Source of the DNA: Enterobacter sp. 10-1
Lineage (GTDB): Bacteria; Pseudomonadota; Gammaproteobacteria; Enterobacterales; Enterobacteriaceae
Direction of reading: 5' to 3'
Assembly: GCA_002270295.1 (NCBI GenBank)
Contig: NISF01000005.1
Span: forward strand, 124,555 to 188,554
DNA length: 64,000 nt
Shown here: positions 8,965-21,701 of the stretch, in pieces
How the letters are laid out: every line of letters begins with the position of its first letter
Numbering within the stretch: the stretch's first letter is position 1
Made by a program: the position numbers and the translations under genes
The notes under the pieces: model-generated
Told to the model about the DNA's origin: nothing
Database searches by the model: none
Seen by the model: only the letters and a program-made list of their open reading frames with translations

Positions 8965-9035
8965 GCGTTTGGGGAAAAATAATTTCGCCGAAAAGGTGTG
9001 GGGAAAAGGCATTCGCATGGCGGGACGAAAAATAA

Positions 9036-9126
9036 GCCCGGAGCCGGTGCCGGGCACCTTATCCGGGCGAAGAAAAAACGTTGCGCATGAAGCCGTCGTC
9101 CCGGTAAGCGCTGCGCTACCGGGACG
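9036..9126. repeat. Pair of REP-like palindromic units
   Basis: Unit one is GCCCGGA (9036-9042) pairing with TCCGGGC (9062-9068), with the CCTTATCCGGGC end typical of enterobacterial REPs. Unit two is CGTCCCGGTA (9097-9106) pairing perfectly with TACCGGGACG (9117-9126), with an inner GCGC pair. They fill the spacer after the glpK stop, at one edge of the rearranged block, and may terminate glpFK transcription. Confidence 0.7.
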
Positions 9127-9138
9127 GTTTCGGCGGGA

Positions 9139-10647
9139 TTACTCTTCGTGCTCTTCCCACGCCAGGGCGCGTTTCACCGCTTTTTTCCAGCCGCTGTAGC
9201 GGTAGTTACGTTCGGTGGTTTCGATCCCCGGACGGAATTCGCGCTCGATCACCGCTTTCTCCTGCAGCTCGTCCAGGTTCTGCCAGAAGCCAACCGCCAG
9301 ACCGGCCAGGTAAGCCGCACCCAGCGCCGTGACTTCACGGACTTCCGGGCGCTCGACGCGGGTGCCGAGAATATCGGACTGGAACTGCATCAGGAAGTTG
9401 TTGGCGACCGCGCCCCCGTCGACGCGCAGCGCGTGCAGACGGATACCTGAGTCAGCCTGCATCGCCTCCAGCACGTCCCGGGTCTGATAGGCGATAGACT
9501 CCAGGGTTGCGCGGATAATGTGGTTGGCGTTTACGCCGCGGGTAAGGCCAAAGATCGCGCCGCGAGCATACGGGTCCCAGTACGGTGCGCCGAGGCCGGT
9601 AAACGCCGGAACCACGTACACGCCGTTGGTATCCTTCACCTTGGTGGCGAAATATTCGGAATCGAACGCGTCGTTGATAAGCTTCATCTCGTCGCGCAGC
9701 CACTGAATAGAGGCGCCGGCCATAAATACCGCGCCCTCAAGGGCATAGTTAACTTCTCCGCGCGGGCCGCAGGCGATGGTGGTCAGCAGGCCGTGGGTGG
9801 AGGCAACCGCTTTCTCGCCGGTATTCATCAGCATAAAGCAGCCGGTACCGTAGGTATTTTTCGCCATCCCCTCTTTGACGCACAGCTGGCCGAACAGCGC
9901 CGCCTGCTGGTCGCCGGCAATACCCGCGATAGGAATACGCGTGCCGCCTTTACCGCCGATGTTGGTCTGGCCGTATATCTCGGAGGACTTGCGCACTTCC
10001 GGCAGCATGGCGCGCGGAATATCCAGCGCGTCGAGCATTTTGTCGTCCCAGTCCAGGTCGTGGATATTGAACAGCATGGTACGCGAGGCGTTGGTGTAGT
10101 CGGTCACGTGCACGCGGCCCTGGGTCATTTTCCACACCAGCCAGGTATCAACGGTCCCGAACAGCAGCTCGCCGCGCTTAGCGCGTTCGCGCGCGCCCTC
10201 AACGTGATCGAGGATCCACTTCACTTTAGTGCCCGAGAAGTACGGGTCCACGACCAGGCCGGTGGCCTGACGGATGTACTCTTCCATGCCGTCACGCTTG
10301 AGCTGCTCGCAGATCTCGGCGGTGCGGCGGCACTGCCAGACGATGGCGTTATAAATCGGTTTGCCGGTTTCACGTTCCCAGACGATGGCGGTTTCACGCT
10401 GGTTGGTGATGCCGATGCCGGCGATCTCATCGGAGCTGATATCCGCTTTCGCCAGCACTTCTACCAGCGTGGAGCTTTGCGAGGCCCAAATCTCCATCGG
10501 GTCGTGTTCAACCCAGCCCGGCCGGGGATAAATTTGCTCAAATTCACGCTGAGAAACGCTGACGATATTGGCATTGTGATCCATCACTACGGCCCGGGAG
10601 CTGGTGGTGCCCTGGTCGAGCGCAACGATATATTTTTTGTCGGTCAT
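9139..10647 (-). CDS. glpK: Glycerol kinase
   Basis: 502 residues. It phosphorylates glycerol to sn-glycerol 3-phosphate with ATP, trapping glycerol brought in by GlpF. The FGGY-kinase ATPase motif GTTSSRAVV is at the N-terminus, and [11 protein letters not shown] near residue 244 contains the catalytic Asp. The EIIAGlc-binding surface [12 protein letters not shown] near residue 475 is kept, so inducer exclusion should apply. It follows glpF by 21 bases as in E. coli. In E. coli glpX follows directly. Here the next gene downstream is xanP, across REP-like repeats, and glpX is 8 kb away behind recG. Confidence 0.98.
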
Positions 10648-10668
10648 AGTATGAGTCTCGTAGTCAGA

Positions 10669-19557: not shown

Positions 19558-19593
19558 AATTCACTCGTTCTGAAGGAAAATTGCGCGCGGCGC

Positions 19594-19617
19594 CGTCTGC
19601 TCCTGCGGGAACAGACG
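19594..19617 (-). terminator. Hairpin between recG and glpX
   Basis: CGTCTGCTCC pairs with GGAACAGACG (one mismatch, loop TGCG), three bases after the recG stop. On the minus strand the stem is followed by a GC-rich stretch and only then AATTTTCC, so it is a weak terminator at best. It could be the old recG terminator kept at the junction. Confidence 0.45.
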
Positions 19618-19619
19618 CG

Positions 19620-21701
19620 TCAGGCGTTGGAATAGCGTTCGGTTTCCGGCATCCAGCGCTCGATAAGCGCCTGAGCCTGCTGTGGGTAACGTTGATGAAT
19701 ATGGCGGGCAATGCGCTGAACGTCCGGGATCATTGCCTTATCGCGCAGTAAGTCGGCGACTTTAAACTCGGCGGTGCCGGTCTGTCGGGTGCCGAGCAGC
19801 TCGCCTGGGCCGCGGATCTCGAGGTCCTTTTGCGCGATGACGAAACCGTCGTTGCTATCGCGCAGGACCTGCAGGCGCAGCTGGGCCGTTTTCGACAGCG
19901 GCGATTTATAGAGCAGCACGCAGTGGGAGGCCACCGCGCCGCGCCCGACGCGGCCTCTGAGCTGATGCAGCTGCGCCAGCCCCAGGCGCTCCGGGTTTTC
20001 GATAATCATCAGGCTGGCGTTAGGCACGTCCACCCCGACCTCGATAACCGTGGTGGCGATAAGCAGATGCAGCTCGCCCTGCTTAAAGGCCTGCATAACC
20101 GCCTGCTTGTCCGCCGGCTTCATCCGGCCGTGCACCAGGCCGATATTCAGCTCCGGCAGCGCCAGCTTCAGCTCTTCCCAGGTGGCTTCTGCCGCCTGGG
20201 CTTCCAGCAGGTCCGACTCTTCAATCAGCGTACAGACCCAATAGGCCTGACGCCCTTCCTGGATACAGGCGTTGCGCACGCGGTCGATAATATCGCTGCG
20301 GCGGGTGTCCGGGATAGCCACCGTGGTGACCGGCGTACGGCCCGGCGGCAGCTCGTCGATCGTCGAGGTGTCGAGGTCGGCGTAAGCGGTCATCGCCAGG
20401 GTGCGCGGAATGGGGGTTGCGGTCATGATCAGCTGATGCGGATGGAAGCCCTGCTGCTGGCCCTTTTCCCATAACGCGAGGCGCTGATGCACCCCGAAGC
20501 GGTGCTGTTCATCGATAATCACCAGCGCCAGGCCGCTAAACTGGACCTGCTCCTGAAAAATAGCGTGGGTGCCGACAATCATCTGCACCTGCCCGCTGGC
20601 GATGGCATCCTGCTGCGCCTGACGCGCTTTGCCTTTTTGTTTGCCGGCCAGCCAGCCGACCTCAACGCCCAGCGGTGCAAACCAGCTGCGGAAGTTGGCG
20701 GCATGCTGCTCCGCCAGCAGCTCCGTCGGCGCCATCAGCGCCACCTGCCTGCCGTGGGCGATGGCCCGCAGCGCCGCGAAGGCGGCAACCAGCGTTTTAC
20801 CGGAGCCGACATCGCCCTGTACCAGGCGCATCATCGGTACATCGAGCGCCATATCCCGCTCGATTTCAGCGGTAACCCGCTCCTGCGCGCCGGTAGGTTT
20901 AAAGGGCAGAGAAGCCAACAGCTTGTTTTTCAGAGCGTCGTTCGCGCTGAGCGGCAGGGCGTGGAAACGCTGGGCGCCAGCGCGAACCGCCAGCATGCTC
21001 AGGTTATGCGCCAGCAGCTCTTCCAGAATTAAGCGCTGCTGGGCCGGGTGCTTACCGGTTTCCAGCTCGCTGAGCTGGAGCGACGGCGGCGGGCGATGCA
21101 GCGTGCGCAGCGCCTCCGGGAGACTCATCATCCCCTGCGCCAGCTCGGGCGGCAGCAGCTCGGCGATAGCGCAGGTCTCCAGCAGCTCCAGCGCCTGATC
21201 GGTCAGCTTACGCAGCGTGGCCTGTTTGATACCTTCGGTGGTGGGGTAGACCGGAGTAAGGGTCTCCTGCAGGTCGGGCGTGCTCATATCGCCCTGCACG
21301 CGGTATTCCGGGTGGATCATCTCCGCGCCGTATTTGCCGCGCTTCGCTTCACCGTAGGCCAGCACCCGGCGGCCGGCGGCAAGGCTGTTTTTCATCGCGG
21401 CGTTGAAGTTGAAGAAGCGCATGGTGAGAATACCGGAGCCATCGCTTATCTGACAGGTCATCATCCGGCGGCCGCCGAAGGTGATATTGCTGTTGAGAAC
21501 TTCGCCTTCAACGGTGGCGTAGACGCCAGGAAGCAGTTCGCCGATTTGATAAAGATGGGTACGGTCTTCGTAGCGTAGCGGCAGATGCAGCAGAAGATCC
21601 TGCACGGTGTGCAGGCCGATTTTCGCCAGCTTGCTGCTCTGCGCTGCGCCAACGCCGGTTAACGTGTTGAGCGGGACAGCATCCAGCAGACGGCTTTGCA
21701 T
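19620..21701 (-). CDS. recG: ATP-dependent DNA helicase RecG
   Basis: 693 residues, as in E. coli. The N-terminal wedge domain (OB fold, about 60-150) binds fork junctions. The SF2 motor follows, with Walker A GDVGSGKT, the DEQH box and GRVGRGAVASHC. RecG reverses stalled forks, processes Holliday junctions and removes R-loops. The frame is open 73 codons further upstream, through trmH, but MQSRLLDAVPL matches the known start and AGGTAAACCG precedes it. The SD overlaps the trmH stop, so translation is probably coupled. Confidence 0.97.
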   Translation of the reverse strand: MQSRLLDAVPLNTLTGVGAAQSSKLAKIGLHTVQDLLLHLPLRYEDRTHLYQIGELLPGVYATVEGEVLNSNITFGGRRMMTCQISDGSGILTMRFFNFNAAMKNSLAAGRRVLAYGEAKRGKYGAEMIHPEYRVQGDMSTPDLQETLTPVYPTTEGIKQATLRKLTDQALELLETCAIAELLPPELAQGMMSLPEALRTLHRPPPSLQLSELETGKHPAQQRLILEELLAHNLSMLAVRAGAQRFHALPLSANDALKNKLLASLPFKPTGAQERVTAEIERDMALDVPMMRLVQGDVGSGKTLVAAFAALRAIAHGRQVALMAPTELLAEQHAANFRSWFAPLGVEVGWLAGKQKGKARQAQQDAIASGQVQMIVGTHAIFQEQVQFSGLALVIIDEQHRFGVHQRLALWEKGQQQGFHPHQLIMTATPIPRTLAMTAYADLDTSTIDELPPGRTPVTTVAIPDTRRSDIIDRVRNACIQEGRQAYWVCTLIEESDLLEAQAAEATWEELKLALPELNIGLVHGRMKPADKQAVMQAFKQGELHLLIATTVIEVGVDVPNASLMIIENPERLGLAQLHQLRGRVGRGAVASHCVLLYKSPLSKTAQLRLQVLRDSNDGFVIAQKDLEIRGPGELLGTRQTGTAEFKVADLLRDKAMIPDVQRIARHIHQRYPQQAQALIERWMPETERYSNA

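Follow-up and report, generated by a model that had tools for sequence, protein, structure and literature searches.

Gene order of the permuted block

Between xanP and recG, the 64,000-nt stretch of Enterobacter sp. 10-1 analysed here (contig NISF01000005.1, positions 124,555–188,554; 'the window') carries a block of about 10 kb, containing the glp genes, zapB, sbp and tpiA, whose order is a circular permutation of that in E. coli. Open reading frames (ORFs) and tblastn searches with markers from E. coli MG1655 gave the order yicH, xanP, glpK and glpF (all −), zapB, sbp, cdh and a permease gene (all +), tpiA and yiiQ (both −), yiiR (+), and then fpr, glpX, recG, trmH and spoT (all −). Ten of the window proteins, compared with NCBIfam, all fell into the expected families, the xanP product at the level of the NCS2 superfamily and the permease as DASS, at a score under that family's cut-off. 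The block is treated below as part B (glpK-glpF-zapB) and part A (sbp-cdh-permease-tpiA-yiiQ-yiiR-fpr-glpX). In MG1655 the same genes lie at 4.11 Mb, as pfkA-sbp-cdh-tpiA-yiiQ-yiiR-yiiS-uspD-fpr-glpX-glpK-glpF-zapB-rraA, and recG-gltS-xanP lies at 3.83 Mb; the window block is the pfkA/rraA block cut between glpX and glpK and joined between zapB and sbp, just as a first-pass annotation of the window had described it. Missing from the window are yiiS and uspD, which among 80 named loci around glpX were confined to those labelled Escherichia; the permease gene between cdh and tpiA was common in loci with an unmoved block as well.

The block is absent from its original position. In the window genome the matches to pfkA and rraA, expected to be neighbours by the same annotation, lie 59 bases apart, and the corresponding spacer in the Raoultella terrigena type strain measures 63 bases, stop codon counted. 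An empty pfkA-rraA site and a block beside recG in one genome indicate that the block has moved, leaving the site empty. The donor site was surveyed in 29 genome entries (27 distinct genomes): pfkA-rraA was matched without interruption in 20 (18 distinct), eight had the two genes 0.4–1.7 kb apart on one contig, and one had them on different contigs. By eye, no block remnants were recognised in the longer spacers.

Donor spacers were of three types: short ones containing a CCTTCTC..GAGAAGG hairpin, ones in which an extra gene accompanies this hairpin, and ones made up of 0.4–1.7 kb of other sequence. The hairpin was present in 24/27 extracted spacers (22/24 distinct genomes; G073, G091 and G096 lay outside this set), from Klebsiella/Raoultella, Kluyvera, Trabulsiella, Pluralibacter, locus L063 and the bacterium-89 group. 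It occurred in 0/53 zapB-rraA and 0/50 pfkA-sbp spacers of unmoved genomes, which points to a single donor scar common to most carriers. Two side observations concern these spacers. Four carriers (L244–L247) have an ORF starting MSLYSE between pfkA and rraA, presumably DUF1993, and the E. coli pfkA-sbp spacer (query ~995–1150) matches many places in genomes G335 and G027, a repeat that we take to be akin to repetitive extragenic palindromic (REP) sequences or bacterial interspersed mosaic elements.

Coordinates are collected in Table 1. All the junction features listed in the first-pass annotation were present: the palindromes beside glpK (REP-like by eye), the hairpin behind zapB and the 62-base spacer between glpX and recG. 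Further along, the trmH-spoT spacer (22403–22533; query 2704–2834) is a dispersed repeat, with many further matches in several genomes.

Table 1. Features of the permuted block and its flanks (window positions unless a locus is named).
Feature	Position	Strand	Remarks
xanP	7505..8911	−	NCBIfam (NCS2 superfamily); left flank of landing site
xanP/glpK spacer, 227 b	8912..9138		Lacks gltS; ~1.37 kb shorter than in R. terrigena L218
Palindromic REP-like sequences	9036–9126		In xanP/glpK spacer; REP-like label by eye
glpK	9139..10647	−	NCBIfam; part B
glpF	10669..11520	−	NCBIfam; part B; start set by eye from E. coli likeness, listed ORF to 11586
zapB	11965..12210	+	NCBIfam; part B
zapB/sbp joint, 156 b	12211..12366		Hairpin 12225–12246 behind zapB, then sequence resembling the sbp upstream part of pfkA-sbp spacers
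sbp	12367..13356	+	NCBIfam; part A
cdh	13453..14205	+	NCBIfam; part A
DASS/CitMHS-like permease	14279..15583	+	NCBIfam below cut-off; part A
tpiA	15652..16419	−	NCBIfam; part A
yiiQ	16529..17128	−	Part A
yiiR, DUF805	17241..17669	+	Part A
fpr	17670..18416	−	Part A
glpX	18547..19557	−	NCBIfam; part A; separated from glpFK, directly behind recG
recG/glpX joint, 62 b	19558..19619		Extended −10 of unmoved genomes missing
recG	19620..21698	−	NCBIfam; right flank of landing site; start chosen for 692 codons, listed ORF to 21920
~285-codon gene	L130 2479–3333; also L129, L065, L088, L196	towards recG	Three carrier genera and Intestinirhabdus

Distribution and age

The joints lie at ~133–144 kb within a 392-kb contig, and the identical order recurs in independently assembled relatives, which makes misassembly very unlikely; the circularly permuted gene order is real. 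Among 60 relatives searched, glpX adjoined recG in all 19 genomes of the same genus, in 18 as one match and in one (G007) with a 0.95-kb insert. This search reveals the glpX-recG joint only; the other joints were seen in ten genus members (among 19 genomes) and in G014. Of the 80 named loci, 25 had glpX beside recG, 54 were E. coli-like as far as their contigs extend, and one was an odd contig of 6.3 kb (L080), with glpK-glpF-zapB turned against glpX, which may be an assembly error. Carriers comprised Klebsiella, Raoultella, Kluyvera, Trabulsiella, Pluralibacter, Superficieibacter and Pseudocitrobacter, together with loci labelled Citrobacter sp. 18056, Enterobacter sp. JUb54, Enterobacter sp. 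CC120223-11 and Enterobacteriaceae bacterium 89; non-carriers included Escherichia, other Citrobacter and Enterobacter, Kosakonia, Lelliottia, Buttiauxella, Cedecea and Silvania. When 295 genomes were sampled evenly across the family, 202 gave any match and at least 20, the window genome included, had an uninterrupted glpX-recG match. Among the matches listed, G027, G267 and G273 had 0.6–4.3 kb between the two genes; the family count of carriers is a lower bound, since carriers with inserts may exceed the matches listed.

Since the glpX-recG joint occurs in every genus member searched and in other genera, the result that the first-pass annotation had named as the mark of an old lineage trait, the permuted order is most likely an old trait common to several genera, neither recent nor an assembly error. 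The window genome is a draft of 37 contigs, the one point in favour of an artefact; a misassembly, or the recent event that had first been suspected, is rejected as almost certainly wrong. A literature search on titles and the openings of abstracts found no paper describing this gene order. As a separate observation, ~4.5 kb lies between the permease gene and cdh in R. terrigena NBRC 14941 and some Klebsiella/Raoultella (L046, 15286–19823; L050, L051, L052), and not in the window.

The landing site and loss of gltS

In MG1655, gltS stands between recG and xanP. A search for it found no match in the window genome, although this search had no positive control. R. terrigena NBRC 14941 (L218) has gltS between glpK and xanP, and window positions 8501–9013 and 9028–9400 match L218 on either side of a ~1.37-kb segment containing it; the contact between xanP and glpK is therefore a later deletion. 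The loss of gltS, which made xanP the neighbour of glpK, is the sole recent change. The gene was likewise missing at this place in L079 and L093, and lay between glpK and xanP, or beside glpK at the end of the locus, in 19 carriers (some only partly visible), including R. terrigena L218, K. pneumoniae, Kluyvera, Pseudocitrobacter, P. gergoviae and Trabulsiella. The landing site is thus the recG side of gltS, given its position in R. terrigena, rather than the xanP/recG boundary first proposed.

On the recG side, a gene of ~285 codons, oriented towards recG, separates recG from glpX in G007, both Superficieibacter loci and G027, and also stands beside recG in the non-carrier Intestinirhabdus (L196); its product had no match in Pfam. 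Its presence beside recG in both carriers and L196 suggests that it was this gene that the first joint brought into contact with glpX, its loss in most carriers coming later.

A proposed path of two inversions across the origin

These observations are best accounted for by two overlapping inversions spanning oriC, which would have rearranged the chromosome long ago in a lineage ancestral to Klebsiella and several related genera, a reading to which we give a probability of roughly 0.55. The starting order would have been that of E. coli, recG-gltS-xanP (with the small gene behind recG in some genomes) lying across oriC from pfkA-A-B-rraA. One inversion across oriC, bounded by the recG side of gltS and by the glpX/glpK boundary, would bring part A to recG. 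The second would turn over almost the same stretch, now bounded by pfkA/sbp and zapB/rraA, and would restore the origin region while A and B stay across oriC from where they began. The outcome would be recG-A-B-gltS-xanP and pfkA-rraA, resembling a circularly permuted insertion, with local deletions later taking out gltS in the window lineage and, in most carriers, the small gene that had separated glpX from recG. The starting and final orders, the scars, the broad distribution and the subsequent rearrangements at these joints are observed; the two-step path and its single occurrence are what we infer.

The chromosome was written as recG | S A B | rraA, where S runs from gltS across oriC to pfkA. 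An exhaustive search showed that recG | −A −B S | rraA requires two inversions and can be reached by one path only (S+A, then S+B), and that the permuted block in the opposite orientation requires three. Two inversions, proposed early on as one explanation, are thus sufficient; their breakpoints are four different ones (recG side|gltS, glpX|glpK, pfkA|sbp and zapB|rraA), not the shared pair then envisaged. In all three complete E. coli-type non-carriers that were placed (MG1655, E. cloacae G102 and Citrobacter R56 G097), recG and glpX are in opposite orientation with atp/oriC between them, and K. pneumoniae has the layout recG-oriC-pfkA, at about 147 and 81 kb from oriC. Non-carriers also show another arrangement around recG: in 26 of their recG regions, counted manually, yicH had E. 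coli-type neighbours in 15 and fabY in 8, with 3 unclassed, and recG and glpX share one orientation in G034, G035, G032 and G045. A start from the order with xanP or yicH beside fabY (Buttiauxella, Cedecea, LSJC7, G034, G032, G045) was rejected, as three inversions would be needed.

One origin or several

Several observations weigh against two inversions in a single ancestor. The distances of the two ends from oriC agree only roughly (about 133/94 kb in E. cloacae, 98/189 kb in MG1655, in addition to the K. pneumoniae distances above). The intermediate expected on this path, pfkA-sbp..glpX-recG together with gltS-glpK..zapB-rraA, did not turn up: among 12 carriers pfkA was beside rraA in ten, 9–13 kb before glpK in two and beside sbp in none, and the single-inversion intermediate was also absent among the 25 named carriers, several of which do not have all joints visible. 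No repeat pair was shown at the breakpoints; visual inspection, rather than a systematic search, picked out REP-like sequences at some joints. The hairpin is missing from the donor spacers read in a Pseudocitrobacter and a Superficieibacter genome. Marker trees are also in conflict over a single carrier clade. The recG-trmH-spoT tree needs six changes of carrier state, at least three on starred branches; gyrB-dnaA needs four, again at least three on starred branches, and rejects one clade in the approximately unbiased (AU) test (p = 0.035), as does atp-mnmG (p = 0.0002). One clade was not rejected by recG-trmH-spoT (p = 0.32) or by nuo (two changes, p = 0.44; 31 rows, from 30 of 48 genomes plus E. 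coli), and block genes, with three changes (p = 0.70), favoured a tree holding carriers together by 13.6 log-likelihood units. Marker searches started from 50 of the 80 named loci, minus L054, with Cedecea davisae (G086) dropped for weak matches; the AU tests for block genes and recG-trmH-spoT left out three distant outgroups, and the atp set left out G094. Unlike nuo, atp-mnmG groups Pseudocitrobacter, Kluyvera and Superficieibacter with Citrobacter/Escherichia, possibly through a large exchange near the origin. Recombination among branches that are both old and short may explain these conflicts, as may a history of spread.

Because the intermediate is unseen and the trees disagree, horizontal spread or sorting of duplicates is kept as the main rival: the permuted block would have arisen as a second copy (for example by tandem duplication) or passed between genera by recombination in the recG/gltS flanks, the native copy being lost separately in each lineage. 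The preference of the block genes for keeping carriers together, set against the rejections by atp-mnmG and gyrB-dnaA and the six changes on recG-trmH-spoT, is what such a history would leave, as are the three types of donor spacer. However, no second high-identity copy was found in the window genome or, among the matches listed, in 12 carriers; nuo and recG-trmH-spoT do not reject one clade in the AU test; and the distribution of the hairpin is that expected of one donor event. On balance we regard spread or duplicate sorting as a possibility, if an unlikely one. Excision from pfkA/rraA of a circle closed at zapB-sbp, opened between glpX and glpK and reinserted at the recG side of gltS, which had been offered from the outset alongside inversions, yields the exact order observed and predicts both the zapB-sbp and the pfkA-rraA joints. 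Yet nothing observed requires a circle, since inversions suffice; no transposase or integrase was seen among the ORFs, nor any trace of a recombinase, attachment site or insertion sequence in the spacers, all judged by eye with no dedicated search; and a circle could insert in either orientation, whereas the one found is that which two inversions would give and its opposite needs three. We consider a circle distinctly improbable.

Later rearrangements at the new joints

The zapB/sbp joint was alike by eye in 19 of 20 carrier spacers (143–208 b), the remaining one having a 4.5-kb insert. Trabulsiella and Pseudocitrobacter show subsequent rearrangements that made use of the new joints. In Trabulsiella G363, zapB-glpF-glpK-gltS-xanP-yicH lies behind trmA, and in two other Trabulsiella genomes yijD..argE follows sbp, so that zapB|sbp is broken (a picture assembled from three genomes); L210, L214 and L393 of this genus show an exchange of two gene blocks, breaking zapB|sbp and yijD|trmA. 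In Pseudocitrobacter G027 and G335 (the latter sharing contig positions with G096, P. faecalis), pfkA|rraA is broken: pfkA is joined to yicJ-yicI..xanP-gltS-glpK, 9–13 kb before glpK, and rraA is elsewhere. Judged from E. coli positions, the changes in both genera would have spanned oriC. The smaller genome G125 is broken between tpiA and sbp.

Consequences for glpX

The move placed glpX behind recG on the same strand. Of 27 carriers compared, the window among them, 23 have a gap of 43–68 bases and four have inserts of 0.96–4.3 kb. An extended −10 element (TGnTAnAnT), which arises in ~1% of simple shuffles, precedes glpX in 54/54 unmoved spacers (MG1655 added; L062, whose contig begins at glpX, and L080 left out), its first base lying 40–43 bases before the start codon (52 in one). 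It was kept in only 4/32 distinct carriers in which recG abuts glpX (23, and nine further genus members), against 5/5 with something between them (L065, L088, L111, L129, G007). A plain Fisher test, which ignores kinship, gave p = 0.0003; with kinship allowed for, four independent pairs (mean 2.8 in the same direction, 0 opposite) gave p = 0.25, which is not significant. A consensus scan of the recG/glpX joint in the window found neither a terminator-like nor a sigma-70-like site; a stem-loop folds there, with no T run directly behind it, and is ordinary against shuffles (z = −1.0). From sequence, we predict that transcription reaches glpX from recG wherever the two abut. A combined account, in which the block is no clade marker, having been a second copy or been exchanged between genera by flank recombination with native copies lost lineage by lineage, and in which glpX directly behind recG joined a spoT-recG unit and its promoter decayed several times independently, seems to us rather unlikely.

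Comparison with known arrangements

In E. coli, glpFKX is an operon, as is gmk-rpoZ-spoT-trmH-recG. The window has the same genes as these two E. coli rows; it differs in that glpX is cut from glpFK and stands behind recG. Carriers offer a natural test of operon splitting, in which glpX (fructose-1,6-bisphosphatase II) has been moved away from the glycerol genes to a place behind recG and has mostly lost a conserved −10. Klebsiella pneumoniae ATCC 13883 (L049/G062) has the same permuted block and empty pfkA-rraA site as the window, but retains gltS beside glpK (partly visible), where the window has none. What had been flagged as an oddity is an old trait that several genera share, and events of known kinds account for it.

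An apparent circular permutation can be obtained without a circle, by two overlapping inversions across the origin. PMC9584773 describes origin-symmetric (replication-associated) inversions as the predominant structural variation, with repeats present at well-defined inversion breakpoints, and PMC2483231 describes an excess of such inversions in Yersinia. The present case is similar in that the ends flank oriC, the origin segment is involved and the region has been rearranged recurrently. It would differ in comprising two overlapping inversions, with no repeat pair shown at their ends, that nearly cancel each other and leave a permuted block behind.

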